Assembly: GCA_003023695.1 (NCBI GenBank)
Contig: PXYW01000003.1
Location: 1-64,000 of the forward strand
Direction of reading: 5' to 3'
Length of the DNA: 64,000 bases
From: Sulfobacillus benefaciens
Lineage (GTDB): Bacteria; Bacillota; Sulfobacillia; Sulfobacillales; Sulfobacillaceae
A program made the position numbers and the translations under genes. Of this stretch, positions 5,645 through 60,719 are shown one piece after another. The notes under the pieces are model-generated. The model saw nothing but the letters and a program-made list of their open reading frames with translations, did not search any database and was not told where the DNA came from. Within the stretch, counting starts at the first letter, position 1. Each line of letters starts with the position of its first letter.

Positions 5645-7372
5645 GTGAGACTAAAATCCCCGTGGTTAGTGACGACCGCGATATTGCCCTTGTTAGCTGC
5701 AGGCTGCGGAGCGAGCACTTCCCCATCAAACACTGCCAGCGGCGGCATAGCTGTCGTGGGATTGTCGCCCCAATCATCGCCTAATTGGTTTTTCCCAGTA
5801 TTATCTCTGGCCGATTATTCTGATCTTAACACCCAGGTCGCATCCTTGCTCTACGAACCCTTGCTATACATCAATAAACAGGACCAAGTGGATTTTTCTC
5901 GTTCTATTGCCACCAGCATAATCCCAAGCCACAACGACACCGTGTACACCATTACACTGGGCAACAAATATCGTTGGTCCAACGGAACTCCAGTGACCGC
6001 CCAAGATGTGGTATTTACCTGGGATGTGATGAATGCAGCGAGCAGCAATGCCCCAAACTTACCGTGGACCTATGGCGGGGAAGGAATTGGCGGGGTGCCT
6101 ACCAAGTGGCAAAGTGTTGTCGCCAAAGGTTCGCATACCGTAGTAGTTACGCTAACCGCGCCCTCTAGTCCCGATTGGTTCGAGCATAACGGGCTCTCGC
6201 AAATTATGCCAGCACCGGCATCGGTTTGGGATAAGTATCCGACCAATATGAACCAAGAACTCAAATTTATTGAGAAATTGTCTAACTCTCCCGATGCCCC
6301 GGAATATAAGGTGGTTGACGGGCCCTATAAGTTTTTCGCCATGTCCCCCAATAACTACTGGTCATTTGTCCCCAACCCCACTTATGGAGGGCACAAGTCC
6401 TCTCTCAGCAAGGTCGTTTTGCAATACGAAACATCGTCTTCCTCAGAATTCACCGAACTGAAAACGGGGGCCCTAAGTGTAGGATTCCTGCCGCCATCAA
6501 TGTGGAAGTCACGCAACCAATTAACTAATGACACCATGCGCTCAATTTACCTGCTGGGATTCAACTTCTTGTTGCCTAACCTGAACCCCAAAGGTCCTGA
6601 CGGCATTGGTAAGGCCTTTAATTCCCTATATGTGCGTGAGGCATTGCAAATGGGGGTCAACCAACAAGGCATCATTAACACATTCTTTCATGGCCACGGG
6701 GTGGTAGAAACCTCTCCCATTCCATCCCAACCGCCGACGCCTTTTTTTGATTCCCAATTGTCCAACCCACTTTATCCGTTTAATCCAAAAGCAGGGATGA
6801 AACTGCTAGAATCTCATGGTTGGCATCTGGTCAATGGAGTAATGACCAATGGCGCAGAAAAACTGTCGTTTAACCTGGTGTACGCCAGTGGTAGTCAAAC
6901 GTATTCTAGCATCGTCCAATTACTGAAAGACGACTGGGCTCAAGAAGGCATTCAAGTGACTTTACAATCGATGCCGTTTGACAATGTCATTGCCGACGCG
7001 ACCCCCTCAGACCCTTCACAATGGGCCATGTTAAATTGGGGTGGCGGTCTCTCGTTTAGCTGGACCTACGAACCCGACTACTTCCCGTCCGGCGGAGGAC
7101 TTTTCGGCACCAACGCCGCCAACAACGCAGGCGATTACTCCAACACTGAAATGAACACTCTGTTGCACGCCATTTACCTTCCAGGATCGTCGTCCCAAAC
7201 CATTACCCGGCTGTATCGCTATGAGGCTTATGCGGCCAAACAACTCCCGGTAATCTGGCTGCCCTATACCCCCATGTTTACCGAACATGTCAATTCGCTA
7301 CATGGCTATGTATCGTCTTTCAACCCCATCGAAGACATCTTTTACCCCAATTATTGGACCTTAAGCCACTAG
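5645..7372 (+). CDS. ABC transporter substrate-binding lipoprotein, peptide/nickel (family 5)
   Basis: A 575-residue family 5 solute-binding protein (DppA/OppA/NikA fold) expected to sit on the outer face of the membrane and deliver peptides or similar solutes to an ABC importer. The GTG at 5645 with AGGAGG seven bases upstream gives a short basic N-terminus, one hydrophobic segment and a lipobox LLAAGC near residue 24. Internal family features include VYTITLGNKYRWSNGTPVTA and ALQMGVNQQGII. No permease or ATPase gene is next to it, so it is an orphan component or its partners lie elsewhere. The 67 codons open upstream of this start are probably untranslated. Confidence 0.85.
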   Translation: MRLKSPWLVTTAILPLLAAGCGASTSPSNTASGGIAVVGLSPQSSPNWFFPVLSLADYSDLNTQVASLLYEPLLYINKQDQVDFSRSIATSIIPSHNDTVYTITLGNKYRWSNGTPVTAQDVVFTWDVMNAASSNAPNLPWTYGGEGIGGVPTKWQSVVAKGSHTVVVTLTAPSSPDWFEHNGLSQIMPAPASVWDKYPTNMNQELKFIEKLSNSPDAPEYKVVDGPYKFFAMSPNNYWSFVPNPTYGGHKSSLSKVVLQYETSSSSEFTELKTGALSVGFLPPSMWKSRNQLTNDTMRSIYLLGFNFLLPNLNPKGPDGIGKAFNSLYVREALQMGVNQQGIINTFFHGHGVVETSPIPSQPPTPFFDSQLSNPLYPFNPKAGMKLLESHGWHLVNGVMTNGAEKLSFNLVYASGSQTYSSIVQLLKDDWAQEGIQVTLQSMPFDNVIADATPSDPSQWAMLNWGGGLSFSWTYEPDYFPSGGGLFGTNAANNAGDYSNTEMNTLLHAIYLPGSSSQTITRLYRYEAYAAKQLPVIWLPYTPMFTEHVNSLHGYVSSFNPIEDIFYPNYWTLSH

Positions 7373-7464
7373 ACGGGGCGGGCTTCAATGTCCGCCCAAT
7401 AATTGCGGCAAAGAATACCCATCGTGTTAATCTCGCCGAGCAGCCCGAACTTTTTGCCCACCTT

Positions 7465-8160
7465 TTAACGAAGTGCGCTGGACAGTGAGATCTTTAGGTC
7501 ACGTTCCATCTCGCGAAATCCGGTTTCTGTTACCCGCATCGCTCGCCCTCCCGGAATCCGCTCGATCCATTTCAATTCGAGCAACCGGTTCATCATGGCC
7601 GATCCTAACGCCCCTGCCAAGTGATGTCTACGGGCGCTCCAATCCAAGCATTGCCGAGCGAAGTGACGTCGGCTGCGTCGAAGAGCGTCCAGATCGATGT
7701 CGAATCCCTCGAACCATCGCTCGCCATCCACAGTAACAACATAATCCCGTCCCACCTCCTGAATCAGACCGCCTTCCCGCATCATGTCTGTCAATGCAAC
7801 CCCGAGATCTCCTGCTAGATGGTCATAGCAGGTTCTGGCAAATCGCAAAGCCCGCACCTGTTCGGATTGCCGAAGAGACCGAATCGGTTTGGGATTCGCA
7901 ATAGCATTGAGGGATTCCAGCGCTAGTCCAACCTCCGCATTAGCCAAGCGATAATATCGATGCCTCCCATAAGGCTCAGCAACCAACAACCCTCCGTGCA
8001 CCATCTTGGCGAGGTGCGCACTGGCCGTCTGCGGCGTCACTCCTGCAGCGCGTGCCAGTTCATTTGCTGGCAGCGAGCGCCCATCAGCTAAATACATCAA
8101 CATCGCCGCGCGAGATTCATCGCCTATTAACGAAGCAATCTCCACTATGTCCGGTATCAC
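7465..8160 (-). CDS. ArsR-family winged-helix transcriptional regulator
   Basis: A 231-residue regulator with an N-terminal ArsR-type winged helix at about residues 5-80. The recognition helix reads GVTPQTASAHLAKM and is followed by a wing around GRHRYYRLA. The remaining 150 residues have no visible metal-binding cysteines and probably form a ligand or dimerisation region. The start is placed at the GTG at 8158-8160 because AAAGGGGG precedes it at good spacing; the ATG 14 codons upstream lacks a ribosome site. It is transcribed away from the flavin-reductase gene across about 120 bases, so it probably represses that gene and itself. The effector is unknown. Confidence 0.8.
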   Translation of the reverse strand: MIPDIVEIASLIGDESRAAMLMYLADGRSLPANELARAAGVTPQTASAHLAKMVHGGLLVAEPYGRHRYYRLANAEVGLALESLNAIANPKPIRSLRQSEQVRALRFARTCYDHLAGDLGVALTDMMREGGLIQEVGRDYVVTVDGERWFEGFDIDLDALRRSRRHFARQCLDWSARRHHLAGALGSAMMNRLLELKWIERIPGGRAMRVTETGFREMERDLKISLSSALR

Positions 8161-53747: not shown

Positions 53748-54701
53748 CTACTGTTCCGGAACCAGGATTAATACTGCATCTTGATCGTCAATAACGGGAT
53801 CGTGTTCTACGCCAACCAATACAGATCCATCATGAACCAGCCCTAACAAGACGCCGGGATAGTTTTTCCGCACTTGACTCAATGGCTGACCGGCCCACTC
53901 CGGTTGAATGGGACGTTCACGCAACTGATAGCGGTCGGTGCCTATCAACCCTAACAGCAAGTCCGCGGCATGTGGCGTCTCAAGACTTTTAGCCAACGTA
54001 CGGCCCATTAAATCATCGGCGGAAATGGTATGACGAATCCCTAGATCTTGCAACGCACCTGCAACTTTTGTCGATTGCACCATAGCCATTTGGGGCAAAT
54101 TCGGTGCGGCATGTTTTACTAACACTGCCGTCATCAAAATATCGCCGTCGGAACTGCCAGCTATTAGTGCCTGGCGGGCCCTTTCCGGATGGGATTTCTT
54201 AACTGTTTCGACCTTGGTCGGGTCGCCTACCATGAGATGAATCCTGGCAGGCACACGGGCCGGATCAACATCGGCCACTAATACCACTTCTTGCTCTTCG
54301 TCTACCAATTCGTTTAACAAGTGGGCCACGGTGTCGTTAAACCCGTACACCACCAGGAAGTCTTTAACATTAAGACGGTGCTCCATTCCCAATACCCTCC
54401 TGAGTTGAATTGATGCTAAAGCTGCTGCCCATGCTGCAAACACTGCACCCACTAGCGGGATCGTGGTCAGCATCACCCCCATCGCCACAATTCGCCCGAT
54501 GGTGTTGTGGGGAGTCACATCTCCATATCCGACTGTGGTTGCAGTGGTAATTGCCCAGTATAGTCCGGTAAAGAAGCGAACTCCCTGGGTCCAGGCAAAC
54601 AAGATCGCCCCTAGTATCATGGTCACCAGCGACAAGATAATCAGAAAGAGGATCTGGTGCCTTCGCACCCTTTTCCATAACAGGCTAATTAATAGAGTCA
54701 C
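53748..54701 (-). CDS. Potassium channel with RCK (TrkA-N/TrkA-C) domain
   Basis: 317 residues. Two helices (about 16-38 and 68-98) flank the pore with selectivity filter TTVGYGD at 55-61. A cytosolic RCK domain begins DFLVVYGFNDTVAHLLNEL, with the Rossmann glycine motif altered from GxGxxG to GFNDT, and ends in a TrkA-C part. This is the MthK-like design of ligand-gated K+ channels. The GTG start overlaps the acetyltransferase stop by four bases (GTGA). K+ flux would support inside-positive potential in an acidophile, but that is inference. Confidence 0.9.
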   Translation of the reverse strand: MTLLISLLWKRVRRHQILFLIILSLVTMILGAILFAWTQGVRFFTGLYWAITTATTVGYGDVTPHNTIGRIVAMGVMLTTIPLVGAVFAAWAAALASIQLRRVLGMEHRLNVKDFLVVYGFNDTVAHLLNELVDEEQEVVLVADVDPARVPARIHLMVGDPTKVETVKKSHPERARQALIAGSSDGDILMTAVLVKHAAPNLPQMAMVQSTKVAGALQDLGIRHTISADDLMGRTLAKSLETPHAADLLLGLIGTDRYQLRERPIQPEWAGQPLSQVRKNYPGVLLGLVHDGSVLVGVEHDPVIDDQDAVLILVPEQ

Positions 54702-55579
54702 AGTGGTCTCCGTTGGAAATGGTATTGATCAATATCGGTTACAGGTTGATAGCCAACTTGTTGGTATATATGATTTGACGTAGGATTCGCCAGGTCGGTA
54801 AACAGGAACACCCGTTGATATCCCCAATCCAACAATTGTTGTGACACCCGCCGCACCAAATCAGACGCATACCCTCGCCCGCGATAGGGTGGCGGTGTAT
54901 AAACCGGAGCTATACGAATGCCATGAGGCGTTGGTCCGCTATAGCCCACTATGCAACACGGATTTCCAGATTCCTCGAGCACCATAAATCCCGCGCTCCG
55001 CCATTCGCCTGCCAATCGAACTGTAACACTGCGATGGGCAAAGTCGCGAGGATCTGTCACCTCTCCCATCGCCTCTGCCGTAAAGTCCACCATCCAAGAC
55101 AGCAACCAGGAGTAATCTTCCGGTACCGCTTGACGTATCTGTTCGGGACCCGAAGATCCCGGCAGCACATCCGTCAACTGGTAAATACGCTCCGAGACTT
55201 CGCGGGTGACCGCATCCCCGGACAACGATGCCCAAATTCTAGCGAACTCGGCTGCCGGGCGTATAGGCCCTATAACACCTACCAGCCCCGGGTACAGGCT
55301 AAAAACATCTTGGACCAAGCACTTAACCGCTTCTTCTAACCCAATCTTGGACAATATTAGGGGCCTCCCTGCCATCCCTAGCGCCGCACCATGAATCTTT
55401 CCTTGTTGATTGGCAACCGCACCCAGATAGACTAAGTCTCCTGGACGCGGATTCCGAGCCTCCGATTCCAAGAGCCCTAACATTAAATTGTGGGTAGCCT
55501 CATCGTTCATTAAGAACTCACGAACGTCGGAAAACAAGGTCGTTGGCGATAGAGACCGCATCATTCGAAACTGCTCCAT
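54698..55579 (-). CDS. GNAT-family N-acetyltransferase
   Basis: 293 residues. The N-terminal half is a degenerate acyltransferase-like fold; the C-terminal half holds the acetyl-CoA motif A in APVYTPPPYRGRGYASDLVR and motif B in NPTSNHIYQQVGYQPV. The two-domain layout resembles N-acetyltransferases that act on small molecules or peptide N-termini. It is coupled by overlap to the K+ channel gene, a link that is unusual and unexplained. Confidence 0.85.
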   Translation of the reverse strand: MEQFRMMRSLSPTTLFSDVREFLMNDEATHNLMLGLLESEARNPRPGDLVYLGAVANQQGKIHGAALGMAGRPLILSKIGLEEAVKCLVQDVFSLYPGLVGVIGPIRPAAEFARIWASLSGDAVTREVSERIYQLTDVLPGSSGPEQIRQAVPEDYSWLLSWMVDFTAEAMGEVTDPRDFAHRSVTVRLAGEWRSAGFMVLEESGNPCCIVGYSGPTPHGIRIAPVYTPPPYRGRGYASDLVRRVSQQLLDWGYQRVFLFTDLANPTSNHIYQQVGYQPVTDIDQYHFQRRPL

Positions 55580-55761: not shown

Positions 55762-56931
55762 ATGGAAACTGCATCTCTTTGGGGACAAGTCGCAGAAGCA
55801 ACGCGCCAACTGCTAAATGCGGGATGGGTGCAAATTACCCATTTTGAAGAAACCGAACCCCTGATCACCATTAAAGGGGTATCTTATTTTGTTCCCCCAG
55901 AATTGAATCGTTTAATGACCGTCACCCAAACTCTGGTTTCTCCCTTAGATCCTTTTCACCGCGCCCATCAACCTACCGTAAACCGGGTGATGCGCCAACT
56001 ATATCTCGAAGGACAAACGGTATGCGCCCCTTTAGAAGATTTTCTCTGTGACATTTTGTCCCCAGAATTGTGCCAGTCTCTAGCCTATTATGCAAATCTT
56101 CGCCTCGTTTGTGCTACGCCCCTTTGGTATCGGGGAAGAGTGTCGGGCGCACTAATCGCCTATGGAATGTCTGATCCCAACGGCCCAGCACTACAATTGT
56201 TAGCGCAATTGGCTTCTTTAATTTGGTTTCAAGAACAAGCTCAAGGAAACACCCAGGGAGAATTGGAGGCACTACAACGAGCAGCGTTGGAATGGATAGC
56301 CCTTTCCTCCCACCATCGCCATGAACTAGCGGACATTTTAGCAAGCCAAATCCAAACGCGTCTCATTGCCCTGATGTGGAGATTGGATGATGTGCTCGAT
56401 GGATTAACCCCTGACGAATCATGGATCCCCACTTTATCCCAAATTCGCGAACAATTGTCGCAAACCGCATACCAGGACATCGCAAATATGAGTCACGCAA
56501 TGTATCCCCCAACATTGCAGCTAGGATTAATAGCCGCGCTCTCCACGTTGTTGGCAGAGCATTCCACCTGCAACGCCACTTTGGCAGCAGACGATGTTGT
56601 GCACAACTGGGACTATCCCACGAACAACCGTATTCCTTTCTCGGTCCGTCTCGCCATGTATCAAATTGTCGAAGACTACTTAAAAATAATGGAGGAAGAG
56701 GGAATCGTCTCGCAAACCCAACTCAAGTTATCCGCCCTCGGCAATACCTTGTGCTTAAATGTCACAGTGCAAGATCCGCTCCCCAGTCTGGCTCCGTTCC
56801 CCCGCAAGCTCGCCGAACAACAGATCAAACTGCTAAGCGGCCAAGTGTTTTGGGCCGAGGATGGCCATCGTATGGCCATCGTGCTTCCAATCCTAGCTCC
56901 ATCGATAAATCTATCCCGCTCGCCCGGATAA
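55762..56931 (+). CDS. Pseudo-histidine-kinase with GAF-like sensor region
   Basis: 389 residues, soluble. The first 160 residues look like a GAF-type sensor (for example LRLVCATPLWYRGRVSGALI). The rest aligns by eye with the active kinase encoded downstream: IANMSHAMYPPTLQLGLIAAL here against IRQLSHQLHPAFIRLGLTPAL there. All catalytic motifs are lost. The H-box histidine is alanine 194 (LADILASQIQ), the N-box reads IVEDYLKIMEE, and the glycine box is absent. ATG 55762 follows AAGGAC; a GTG 15 codons upstream is weaker. Likely a regulatory partner of the second protein. Confidence 0.7.
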   Translation: METASLWGQVAEATRQLLNAGWVQITHFEETEPLITIKGVSYFVPPELNRLMTVTQTLVSPLDPFHRAHQPTVNRVMRQLYLEGQTVCAPLEDFLCDILSPELCQSLAYYANLRLVCATPLWYRGRVSGALIAYGMSDPNGPALQLLAQLASLIWFQEQAQGNTQGELEALQRAALEWIALSSHHRHELADILASQIQTRLIALMWRLDDVLDGLTPDESWIPTLSQIREQLSQTAYQDIANMSHAMYPPTLQLGLIAALSTLLAEHSTCNATLAADDVVHNWDYPTNNRIPFSVRLAMYQIVEDYLKIMEEEGIVSQTQLKLSALGNTLCLNVTVQDPLPSLAPFPRKLAEQQIKLLSGQVFWAEDGHRMAIVLPILAPSINLSRSPG

Positions 56932-57165
56932 ATATGGTAAAAGTTTTCGTCCAAGTGTATGGGATTTCCTCATGATGGCATAGGCTTCGACATTATCACT
57001 GCGCCAAATTGTCGCAATATACAGGTTCGTGACGCACGATTCCTTCGCCGTCGTCACTGTCGATGCAGGAATTTTTATGGATTTAGGCGAATTGGCTGCT
57101 GACAAATTAAGTAAAATCCCATGAAAAAACTTATAGGGCGACGATTAATAAGGAGAAAATATCTC

Positions 57166-58329
57166 ATGAATATACATCCGCCGGTACTTAAGGATTTTAT
57201 CGAGCGCATTCGCCACGAGACTAAATGGGCCTGGATTCAATATCTACGAGTCTCCCTAGTATCTTTTGATGTGATTGAATGTAGCCACAATCCTGCTGAT
57301 GCTGCTGCAGCAGAGGCACTTTGCCAAGTGGTAGCTCTCTGCCACCAGACCGCGAAGAACGGGGAAATCAATGCAAACTCAATCTACCGCAAGGGGCCGC
57401 TGTTAAATCGGCACTGGACCGACTTTACAGAATCCGATATAAAAATAGGCATACCTCCAAGGTGGCCATATCTTAGCCTCTATCCGGTCAAATACGACAC
57501 TGTATATTATGGTTCCTTACTTATTCATCACGAAGAACTTCTCTCAGAACATTCAGAACAACTATTATCCGCTTATGCTCACGAGGCGGCAGCCCTCGAA
57601 CGGGTTTCCGATCTTGAACAACGTGTGCAGGATCAAGGATGGAAGCTACACGATGCCATTATAGAATTGGCGCATGCACATGATACAGCAGCAGAATCCG
57701 TAGCTGACCACTTACACGGCAAAGTGCAAAGCTACTTACTGGTTGCATCGCATCAGCTGCAGCAGTGTCAAGATTTGCTTAGGTCACAACCCACCGAGAT
57801 AATGGATATTTTGCAAAACACCATGGATCTTCTCGATACCGTCCGTGATCAGCATATACGGCAATTAAGTCACCAACTCCATCCGGCATTTATCCGACTT
57901 GGGCTGACTCCCGCATTAGAACATCTGATTCGACGCTACCATTCTGTCTTGAATCTCCAACTTCGAATCGATGCCACGGTACGCCGATGGGACCAATTGA
58001 TTGATAGTCCGCTGCCACCAGCTACACGACTAGCCACCTACCGCATTGTGGAAGAGGCTCTGAATAACGTAATACAGCACGCCCAGGCCAATAGCGTCCA
58101 AGTCCGAGTATTGGTTGAAGACGGTCAATGGTTGGTCGTCCATATAGAAGACAACGGCAATGGCCGCCAATCCCACTCATTGAAGGAACATTTGGGTACA
58201 TTAACGATGAGAGCTCGAGCGGAAGAATTAGGGGGCACACTGAAATGGACACCGGTGTCACCACAGGGCACTCGGATAACCTGCATTCTACCCATCGCGG
58301 TTTCCACTGGCCTATTAAAAACCATTTAG
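57166..58329 (+). CDS. Cytosolic sensor histidine kinase, HisKA_3/NarL-partner type
   Basis: 387 residues with no membrane helix. N-terminal sensor region (about 1-160), a helical linker, H-box with histidine 184 (VADHLHGKVQSYLL), N-box EEALNNVIQHAQAN (about 296-309), and glycine boxes DNGNG (329-333) and LGTLTMRARAEELGGTL. The set matches kinases that normally phosphorylate NarL/LuxR-type regulators. No such regulator follows; instead a receiver-only protein lies on the other strand with its last 15 bases overlapping this gene's end. AAGGAG lies ten bases before the ATG; 15 codons upstream are open. It is a tandem paralog of the pseudokinase. Confidence 0.85.
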   Translation: MNIHPPVLKDFIERIRHETKWAWIQYLRVSLVSFDVIECSHNPADAAAAEALCQVVALCHQTAKNGEINANSIYRKGPLLNRHWTDFTESDIKIGIPPRWPYLSLYPVKYDTVYYGSLLIHHEELLSEHSEQLLSAYAHEAAALERVSDLEQRVQDQGWKLHDAIIELAHAHDTAAESVADHLHGKVQSYLLVASHQLQQCQDLLRSQPTEIMDILQNTMDLLDTVRDQHIRQLSHQLHPAFIRLGLTPALEHLIRRYHSVLNLQLRIDATVRRWDQLIDSPLPPATRLATYRIVEEALNNVIQHAQANSVQVRVLVEDGQWLVVHIEDNGNGRQSHSLKEHLGTLTMRARAEELGGTLKWTPVSPQGTRITCILPIAVSTGLLKTI

Positions 58330-58704
58330 TGGCTCAGCGCCACACCAGTCGCGTAAAATTGACACTGTAATCTGTGGCTTTAAAATAAACGGAAGTGCCA
58401 TTTTAGCCACGAAAGGCCCTATTTCAGGATCTGTTCCCATGATGAGTACTCTGGGTCGGAATGAAGAATTCCTTGCGCCGTCTCGAAAGCTCTCATAAAG
58501 CATTTTGTCTAATAAATTAACGTCGCATAAGACCAAGTTAGGTTGCAAATCGCGAACTAACGCCACACCGGCGACGCTAGCTGAAGCAGATCCTACTAAT
58601 TTCACGCTGTTTAGAGCAGACACCAGGTGGATTAACCACTTCAAATATAGTTCATCGCGTTCTAAGATCACTAGGGATCGCAGTAATTCCGGATCCGCCA
58701 CCAC
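58315..58704 (-). CDS. Single-domain response regulator (receiver only)
   Basis: 129 residues, one receiver domain without output domain. Acid pocket in LVILERDELYL, phospho-acceptor aspartate in NLVLCDVNLLDK, threonine in VLIMGTDPE and lysine in LPFILKPQ: all key positions are present. GTG start behind GGGGAGGAAA. It is convergent with and overlaps the kinase gene by 15 bases, so the two transcripts would be antisense at their ends. It could be the phosphate acceptor of the kinase and act by protein contact. Confidence 0.75.
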   Translation of the reverse strand: MVADPELLRSLVILERDELYLKWLIHLVSALNSVKLVGSASASVAGVALVRDLQPNLVLCDVNLLDKMLYESFRDGARNSSFRPRVLIMGTDPEIGPFVAKMALPFILKPQITVSILRDWCGAEPLNGF

Positions 58705-58853
58705 TTTCCTCCCCTTCCCCTTTGTAATTATTCGAGGGGCAAAGGCGATCTCCTTGTTTCCCCTGCCAATCTTTTGTGCTCTGATGCTTTAGTGCGTACA
58801 TGTTTTAGAATATAATCTCGAACCATGAGAGATACGACCAGCGGAAGGGTATC
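58705..58853. promoter_or_regulatory. Presumed promoter region of the receiver gene
   Basis: 149 bases upstream of the minus-strand receiver gene. AT-rich near 58797-58825; no clear operator seen. Confidence 0.3.
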
Positions 58854-59186
58854 ATGCCGTCAAGACGAACCACATATTCCAACCTTGGCCAAAAATTGCC
58901 GACGAATATAACTTGGACTCACAAACCGAAATTGCCAACCTTAAATTGCTCATCGCCTCTCATGTTTCGCAGGTTCCAAATATCAGCGGACCAAATTTTG
59001 AAATTTTATTTGGCCGTGGTGGAGGCCATGCTAGCCGATTTGCCGTTGGGTGCCGCGCTGAATCAAACGCGAGTGCCGGATGCTCCGCATCCGGAAATCT
59101 CTCATCGGAAGGTTGCCGCGTCCTATATTGGTCTCCTGTCGCAGGACGTGTTTTTCGGCTCTTTTGACGGCCAGAAAAGCGGTTAG
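58854..59186 (+). pseudogene. Frameshifted remnant of an unknown gene
   Basis: Protein-like coding signal moves between frames. From about 58900 to 58995 one frame reads like a real protein (DSQTEIANLKLLIASHVS). From about 58990 to 59186 another frame does (YLAVVEAMLADLPLGAALNQ, then SHRKVAASYIGLLSQDVF). Neither frame has a convincing start with ribosome site. I read this as one decayed gene with at least one frameshift; family not recognised. Confidence 0.4.
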
Positions 59187-59199
59187 AGGTTACTTCGCC

Positions 59200-59459
59200 T
59201 TGAAAGTCGTGCCATCTCGACCACTATTGCTTGGTCTCGTAGTTATGTTATTTCTCGTGGCCGCTCTGTTCGCCCTAGGTAGCGGGTTATATGAATGGAT
59301 TATTGGTGCGGTGTTTTTTTCAGCGGAATTGCCATCGGATTATTCAATGCAATGTGGCACGCTTCTGTGCAAGCATTTACACCGGTTGGGAAGTTGTCCC
59401 GGGTCAGTGCGCTTGACTGGTTATTGTCGTCAGCCACGCCTGCTTTTGGTTGGAAGTAG
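59200..59459 (+). pseudogene. Small membrane protein gene broken at a run of seven T
   Basis: A TTG at 59200 behind AGAGG opens a frame coding LVVMLFLVAALFALGSGLYE, a clear membrane helix. At the T-run 59314-59320 the coding sense shifts by one: with one extra T the frame continues FSGIAIGLFNAMWHASVQAF and ends at TAG 59457-59459. The product would be about 86 residues. The change may be a true mutation, a slippery phase-variable tract or a base-calling error. Confidence 0.5.
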
Positions 59460-59536
59460 TCGCACTTGCTGTTGCCTAAGCCATGTTTCTCTTGAGCAAG
59501 CCCATGCGGGAACTTAACGAATAAGGGAAATGTAGC

Positions 59537-59668
59537 ATGAAAGCCATGGGAATTAATATCAAAGTATCGGGAACGAAGCTCATTCCTAGAGACGACTATT
59601 TTCGCATCCGGCAAACAGAACCAGACCTCAACATTATGGCTGAGTTGCACATGGTAGATGACACCTAG
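59537..59668 (+). CDS. Short ORF, 43 codons, unknown
   Basis: ATG with AAGGGA nine bases upstream. The protein starts MKAMGINIKVSGTKLIPRDD and ends at TAG 59666-59668; it looks soluble and mixed charged. It could be a real microprotein or the first part of a lost gene. No similarity recognised. Confidence 0.35.
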   Translation: MKAMGINIKVSGTKLIPRDDYFRIRQTEPDLNIMAELHMVDDT

Positions 59669-59784
59669 TCTGGGTGGGCACTTTGCGTTACTATTTAAAC
59701 TGCAGATTGGCAGCTATTGACATGCGGAACCTGCGATGTTTCGCTTAATTTCGTGTGTTAGAGTGCCCGGTTCCCACCAGCTAA

Positions 59785-60719
59785 TCAATTTCCAAGCGTT
59801 TCCCTTACAGGTCGCCGCCGTGGATTTAACAGCAAGGATAGAAACACAAGATACGAGACGGCTACGTCGATAATTGCCAAAAGGGGATGTCGTGCAATAG
59901 CCGAGTCATACACTCCGTGAAATATGGCTGCCAGCAACAAAAGGCCAATGCCTACCCGCCATCCGCGAAAACCGTGTGACGCTACCCAGCCGAATCCCCA
60001 AGAGGCGATCCCTGCCCAAATTGCATGTAAAAACGGAGTGTATAATGCCCTCGTCAACGCGGTAAATGTTCCTAATCCAAAGGCATGCCGCATCACCTCA
60101 AATGCGATACCTCGTTCCACATAGGATATATTTTCCACCGCAGAAAAACCCAGCCCCGATGACACCCCGAGCATCATATAGGTTAAAGGGGACCATACCA
60201 CACCGCGAATCCTTTGCCAGCCTAGAACCACCAACACGATAATTTGCTTACAAAATTCCTCGGTAAGGCCAACGAACGCGATATAGGCAGGAGTTGCCAC
60301 GGCAAGTGAGGATGCGTTAAGAAACTTGGAACCTCCGTGAGCGTACCAAAAAGATTCGACCAACATGGCTATGGTGGTGCCCACCACACCGGTAAACACA
60401 TAGGCTCCAATGTCGCTGACCAACGGTGCGAGCCGAATATGGCTCGCTAACAATGGTTGAAACACAAAAAACCAAAACAAAGAGAAATACACCATCATCC
60501 CCGCCACGACATTGATATGAAAATCTAACAATAAAATGGGGGTAATAGCCAGTAGTAGCAACCCCAGGTATAAACGCGACCGGAGGATGGCCATCACATA
60601 AAGAATAGGGTTAGCCGGAAGCCACCTTCTAGCGATACCGAACAAGCCCGCCGTTTCGGAATTTCGACAGGTGGTGCACTGTGCCGGTCAATTGGTTGGC
60701 CACAATTTTCGCAGCGCAT
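59785..60719 (-). pseudogene. PrsW-family intramembrane protease with zinc ribbon out of frame
   Basis: From 60645 down, 286 codons give about eight helices and the PrsW motifs: EExxK in AFVGLTEEFCKQIIVLV, and later FHGVYDSAIA with its histidine. The TTG at 60645 has no ribosome site. A strong AGAGGAGAG does precede an ATG at 60717-60719, which reads MRCENCGQPIDRH in another frame. The second half of the zinc ribbon, CTTCRNSETAGLFG, is in the PrsW frame. One missing base near 60675-60680 would join them into a zinc-ribbon plus PrsW protein, a known layout. Either the gene is broken or the sequence has a one-base error. Confidence 0.7.

Follow-up and report, generated by a model that had tools for sequence, protein, structure and literature searches.

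We analysed a window of 64,000 nucleotides from Sulfobacillus benefaciens (assembly GCA_003023695.1, contig PXYW01000003.1, positions 1 to 64,000 of the forward strand) and focused on three adjoining genes, which encode a degenerate histidine kinase (P0001), a HisKA_3-like kinase (P0002) and, on the other strand, a receiver-like protein (P0003). The best reading of this locus, in which we place middling confidence, is that a NarL/DesK-like two-component system has been rewired and includes two regulators without catalytic function. The arrangement is real, conserved and unusual; its parts are known, and it is a variant of the HisKA_3-like two-component system. What the data show directly is the homology and degeneracy of the proteins, the co-conservation of the genes, their domain-wise conservation, and the co-occurrence of the kinase with a regulator encoded elsewhere. 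An earlier note, made from the letters of this DNA, had described two soluble sensor proteins in tandem, with a receiver gene overlapping the end of the kinase gene by 15 bases, and we recovered the same layout:

55762-56931, + strand: pseudokinase P0001, 389 residues (longest possible frame from 55717), with a GAF-like sensor (about residues 1-160), DHp-like helices and a CA-like domain
56932-57165, + strand: gap of 234 bases between the P0001 and P0002 genes
57166-58329, + strand: kinase P0002, 387 residues, soluble, HisKA_3-like, with a GAF-like N-terminus (longest frame from 57121; the ATG at 57166 has AAGGAG ahead of it)
58315-58704, - strand: pseudo-receiver P0003, 129 residues, tail-to-tail with the P0002 gene; the overlap is exactly 15 bases (58315-58329) and holds the kinase TAG and the receiver TAA

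P0001 is a genuine degenerate homologue of histidine kinases. As the earlier note had it, the protein aligns with P0002 along the dimerisation region (30% identical residues in a BLASTP alignment of 137 residues, E = 3e-12), and because a profile-profile alignment covers the full length (352 columns, probability 99.6%, E = 8.9e-25), the similarity is not due to chance. The predicted loss of the phospho-site and of both ATP-binding boxes was likewise confirmed: P0001 carries Ala194 where the phospho-histidine is expected and has no N-box and no G-boxes, while Gln198, at the +4 position, is retained. The protein is thus homologous to kinases, has lost the phospho-histidine and ATP residues and has been kept in evolution, which together mark a pseudo-histidine kinase. 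Loss of the phospho-histidine is rare in HisKA_3 domains, being found in 56 of 16,025 sampled (0.3%; PMC12632262). Pfam and PDB sequence searches with P0001 gave no match above cut-off, and there was no match to Pfam HATPase_c; the NCBIfam family MctS was matched at E = 8.9e-5. An AlphaFold model, built on an input alignment of five rows only, was usable in the CA-like part (residues 251-380, block pLDDT about 59-87) and unusable at the N-terminus, and its top PDB match in Foldseek was DesK in the DesK-DesR complex (E = 9.7e-6). When the pseudokinase profile was searched over 398 genomes of the phylum, strong matches were confined to the host's family; four weaker matches lay elsewhere, the one inspected being an ordinary LHGRVQ kinase. 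A further pseudokinase from this kinase family was noticed in genome G036 (L102:11901-13019, - strand), with Arg in place of His and the N-box lost; its gene adjoins the LuxR-type response regulator gene discussed below tail-to-tail, an intact kinase is divergent from it, and it is possibly of independent origin.

The second protein of the tandem has kept its catalytic motifs, in agreement with the earlier description. Its H-box reads LHGKVQ (His184, Gly185, Gln188), the N-box lies at 300 (NNVIQH) and the G1 box at 328 (EDNGNG), and the match to Pfam HATPase_c (E = 1.2e-10) together with the N-box and G-boxes identifies an HATPase_c domain. The HisKA_3 label given to it earlier holds in part. 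Neither P0001 nor P0002 matched Pfam HisKA_3 (PF07730) even at E = 1, ten relatives yielded a sole weak match (the L102 kinase, E = 0.017), and of the His-Asp/Glu pair with Gln at +4 expected of this family, P0002 has the Gln and a Gly after the His. In NCBIfam, P0002 resembled MctS (5.9e-25), UhpB (2.4e-20), NarQ (1.5e-15) and NarX (8.5e-13), all far below the equivalog cut-offs. P0002 is therefore HisKA_3-like but no standard HisKA_3 protein. Because nearly all relatives in the host's family share the LHGxVQ form (G016 has Ala in place of the Gly), the Gly is a feature of the lineage and not damage.

We surveyed 42 genomes of the order and found the tandem intact in four of them, which represent two genera (the window's genome, G038, G016 and G015), with the tail-to-tail receiver present in the first three; in G015 a receiver was looked for beside the tandem and not found. 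The earlier note had proposed such a survey, and it shows the tandem maintained in two genera. In G038, G016 and G015 the gap between pseudokinase and kinase is about 270-310 bases, and a search for related loci in the named genomes returned three distant kinases only. In the tree, the pseudokinases of the four genomes group together, as do their kinases (100/100 for each clade), and both clades span two genera; nearest to the trio kinases are kinases from three further genera, which also lack an adjoining regulator (80/85). An origin of the pseudokinase from the kinase type of G013, G031 and G033 appears favoured over one from the neighbouring kinase, because GAF motifs are shared in the alignment and because the nearest relatives of P0003 outside the trio are intact single-domain receivers adjoining that kinase type in those three genomes.

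Conservation within the tandem is split by domain. Between the window and G038, identity in the pseudokinase is 54% for GAF, 50% for linker-DHp and 35% for CA, and in the kinase 37%, 51% and 51%, respectively. GAF is the most conserved domain of the pseudokinase and the least conserved of the kinase, in which the phosphotransfer domain is conserved most. Across genera, the pseudokinase is the more conserved in GAF (36-39% vs 24-28%) and the kinase in DHp (53-57% vs 29-32%). Fisher values are 0.005 for GAF (window-G016 and window-G038) and 0.001 for DHp (window-G016). This pattern suggests that P0001 is the sensor subunit and P0002 the catalytic subunit, and it is what would be expected if sensing had moved to the dead subunit while phosphotransfer stayed with the live one. 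The earlier idea that the pseudokinase senses and the kinase acts fits this split, and as a division of roles it is probably right.

The same comparison bears on whether, after a duplication, one kinase and the receiver are merely eroding and functionless. Decay is seen in G039, where an IS256-like transposase gene (named by eye; L095:7337-8407) sits inside the receiver gene, and in G040. The pseudokinase also evolves faster than most flanking genes: its ratio of non-synonymous to synonymous substitution rates (dN/dS) is 0.14-0.22 against G040 (two long stretches) and 0.25-0.44 against the broken G039, compared with 0.05-0.08 for the flanking K-channel, patatin, decarboxylase and PrsW-like genes. 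However, the frames are intact in four genomes of two genera, the cross-genus identity of the pseudokinase GAF points to constraint and not drift, and dN/dS is well below 1. The pseudokinase is under constraint, less so than its flanking genes, and we regard a functionless remnant as quite improbable.

The receiver departs from the earlier account, which had credited it with all key residues. In an ungapped alignment to an intact relative in L100, the active-site positions of P0003 are Glu15, Arg16, Asp61, Thr91 and Lys110, so that the metal-binding second acidic position (DD2) is occupied by Arg16; the acidic pair reads E-P in G038 and D-A in G016. The Asp61 and Lys110 positions are kept in all three orthologues, and Thr91 is replaced by Met or Asn in the other two. 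True receivers all carry an acidic residue at DD2, which is a direct ligand of the metal (PMC12632262). P0003 hence lacks the five-residue set (DD1, DD2, D, T/S, K) of a phosphorylatable receiver and, judged by these positions, is a pseudo-receiver, a class of protein whose working has been called a mystery (review PMC12632262). Since it has no direct Mg2+ ligand, phosphotransfer from P0002 to P0003 is unlikely. P0003 had no match to Pfam Response_reg at E <= 1 and matched NCBIfam NarL at 1.6e-5; its orthologues in G038 and G016 pass the Response_reg cut-off (2.3e-10 and 1.8e-7). AlphaFold of P0003 alone was unusable (pLDDT 40).

These residues weigh on an explanation close to that of the earlier note, namely a closed trio in which the pseudokinase controls the kinase by heterodimer formation, the kinase phosphorylates P0003, and output runs by protein contact with no DNA-binding regulator. 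The conserved tail-to-tail receiver in three intact genomes and the Asp61 and Lys110 positions kept throughout are in its favour, and the receiver gene of G038 and G039 is immediately preceded by one for a GAF-GGDEF protein (diguanylate cyclase; L096:337-1407 and L095:5995-7059), which makes an output through cyclic di-GMP thinkable. Against this, the three intact orthologues have Arg, Pro or Ala at DD2 and two of them have lost the Thr, G015 kept the tandem with no receiver found, and a LuxR-type regulator co-occurs with the kinase, as detailed below. The GGDEF gene, moreover, was searched for in the window and is absent, with unrelated DNA in its place, and it is missing in G016 as well. We consider this explanation unlikely.

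A family of degenerate single-domain receivers was also seen near single-copy kinases of several genera, about 0.4-1.3 kb away and with a non-acidic residue at the DD2 place (L110:7094-7453, L111:9744-10151, L112:6535-6939, L113:6687-7064 and L114:8117-8503); two were tested and had no Pfam match. In genus g8, a small classical HisKA kinase (L112:7047-7916 and L113:7204-8073) separates the LHGxVQ kinase from the degenerate receiver, giving another two-kinase locus of the system; the L113 copy, which was tested, matched HisKA (3.7e-7) and HATPase_c (2.3e-10).

A candidate DNA-binding regulator, held to be absent by the earlier note, is encoded in the same genome, on another contig than the window and with no kinase beside it:

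G000:C94:46878-47669, - strand: orphan LuxR-type response regulator, flanked by Wzz/CpsD-like genes on one side and a membrane LuxR protein on the other

In the coordinates of locus L115 this gene spans 6879-7670. No other LuxR-type response regulator of this genome lacks an adjoining HisKA_3 kinase, and the same regulator is an orphan at Wzz/CpsD-type (exopolysaccharide) loci in G038, G015 and G016. In other genera, the same LuxR-type response regulator adjoins this kinase type in nine loci (G013 twice, G019, G020, G021, G026, G030, G036 and G037), and the two genes overlap tail-to-tail by 4-28 bases in five of them; the kinase stands tail-to-tail beside the regulator in most single-kinase loci, several of which carry exopolysaccharide genes. 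Both genes occur together in 18 genomes of the survey, with the kinase alone in three, the regulator alone in none and neither in 21 (Fisher, 7.5e-9). Counting a weak 59-bit match in G034 changes these numbers to 18/3/1/20 (Fisher, 1.3e-7), and genomes at least 90% complete give 15/2/1/16 (Fisher, 2.1e-6). Two of the three kinase-only genomes have a broken trio, and presence of the two genes covaries within genera g1, g9 and g11 too. Ordinary LuxR-type partners in relatives, which the earlier note had named as evidence against its proposal, thus exist in part; they change the story and do not end it. Output by protein contact is unlikely given the regulator beside the single-gene relatives and the orphan on C94, and a probable DNA-binding partner on another contig is a caution against inferring output from adjacency. 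We also rejected tail-to-tail overlap as a trait specific to the trio, since five single-kinase loci have the same arrangement with full LuxR regulators.

Adjoining the exopolysaccharide response regulator in eight loci is a protein of 438-484 residues, apparently membrane-spanning and with a C-terminal LuxR helix-turn-helix, which seems to be a further output or sensor under conservation:

L115:7741-9075 (on G000:C94): membrane LuxR protein
L102:9768-11090: membrane LuxR protein
L101:6150-7514: membrane LuxR protein
L143:4873-6210: membrane LuxR protein
L145:4841-6205: membrane LuxR protein
L147:3971-5287: membrane LuxR protein
L148:3569-4885: membrane LuxR protein
L151:7318-8772: membrane LuxR protein

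From these data we infer a heterodimer, a sensing role, a direction of control and a route of phosphotransfer. P0002 would be the catalytic kinase, whose HisKA_3 H-box has the LHGxVQ form, and P0001 most likely joins it in mixed dimers through the DHp helices, where it would supply the main GAF sensor or signal and set the kinase/phosphatase balance. The phosphoryl group would most likely pass from P0002 in trans to the LuxR-type regulator on C94, at the exopolysaccharide locus. P0003, probably unable to bind Mg2+ normally, most likely acts at the DHp surface of the transmitter, as a ligand or brake that does not depend on phosphorylation. Precedents for this mechanism are the ChrS pseudokinase that works through HrrS (PMC9491836), the direct inhibition of CckA by a receiver-like protein (PMC9430884) and the His/Asp/Gln geometry of DesK (PMC5231405). 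P0001 and P0003 probably derive from one kinase/single-domain-receiver pair whose chemistry was lost and which was retained for regulation. A stronger form of this scenario, possible though doubtful, is that the pair lost its chemistry as a unit and was kept across two genera as sensor subunit and brake for a second kinase with a distant regulator target, making an obligate heterodimeric HisKA_3-type sensor of one dead and one live kinase. One live kinase, a dead kinase, a dead receiver and single-gene relatives form a compact natural set, which would let the steering of a live protein by dead ones be tested.

Gln198 invites a different assignment, by which the pseudokinase targets the regulator and not the kinase, either as a dedicated phosphatase acting through the Gln at +4 or as a regulator-binding sink. 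All four pseudokinases retain this residue in spite of having lost the His and the ATP motifs, and in HisKA_3 kinases it positions water and does not need the His (PMC5231405; PMC12632262). Yet the neighbouring Asp through which DesK pairs with its regulator is replaced by Ser/Thr in the pseudokinases and by Gly in the kinases, the Gln is perhaps kept only for helix packing, and the G036 pseudokinase has Ser at this position. We keep this assignment as a rival, though an improbable one.

Several observations weigh against a rewired two-component system with P0002 as its kinase. The Gly after the His is unusual, and autokinase activity of this kinase type is only predicted. The 234-base gap means that co-translation of P0001 and P0002 is not given. 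The system is dispensable, because the trio is broken in G039 (stops in the genes, most flanking genes intact) and the pseudokinase is frameshifted in G040 (at a contig edge). The closest kinase of the pseudokinase is not fixed by the tree, in which it may be sister either to the trio kinases (AU test, p = 0.23) or to those of G013, G031 and G033 (p = 0.44). Finally, shared ancestry of the genomes makes the Fisher values exaggerate the link between kinase and regulator, and G017 has the kinase without the regulator.

Among known systems, DesK-DesR and NarX-NarL share with the locus the order and fold of the DHp and CA domains, the Gln at +4 of the His and, in relatives, the LuxR-type regulator. 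Here, by contrast, the sensor is a soluble GAF protein, the His is followed by Gly, Pfam HisKA_3 gives no match, the regulator is encoded elsewhere, and a pseudokinase and a pseudo-receiver are added. In Caulobacter, DivL is a HisKA-type membrane protein with Tyr in place of His that reads phosphorylated DivK. This pseudo-histidine kinase is reported to control a true kinase, CckA, in a circuit that includes a single-domain receiver (PMC4211667; PMC9491836). In P0003, by contrast, the receiver has itself degenerated, and we do not propose that the two systems are homologous; given this degeneracy, a DivL/DivK-type phosphorylation-dependent binding of the receiver to the pseudokinase seems unlikely. 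RetS and GacS of Pseudomonas are hybrid membrane kinases, encoded apart, and RetS is not stripped of its catalytic motifs, unlike P0001. Control of one kinase through mixed oligomers with another is described for this pair (PMC4866733; PMC9491836). In Corynebacterium glutamicum, a non-catalytic ChrS kinase raises output through its paralogue HrrS, and native ChrS and HrrS form heterodimers; that pseudokinase arose by frameshift in laboratory evolution, and its truncated form gave no heterodimer in the assay (PMC9491836), whereas P0001 occurs naturally, has a gene of its own and has been conserved in two genera. For P0003, the model is Osp of Rhodobacter, a single-domain response-regulator-like protein reported to bind the transmitter domain of CckA and inhibit it directly; Osp differs in its unrelated lineage and in its target, a hybrid kinase, and the abstract describes no neighbouring pseudokinase gene (PMC9430884).

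The trio is flanked by the following features, and a promoter/terminator scan of the region returned terminator-like sites not above chance:

54698-55579, - strand: GNAT-like gene (assigned by eye), in divergent orientation to the pseudokinase gene
58789-59755, no strand: about 0.97 kb of DNA unrelated to the relatives
59785-60645, - strand: membrane protein similar to PrsW proteases (assigned by eye)

The same GNAT-like neighbour is found in G038, G016 and G015 and also in G039 and G040 (broken), and the PrsW-like gene, which keeps its synteny in G039 and G016, delimits the conserved block on the right.

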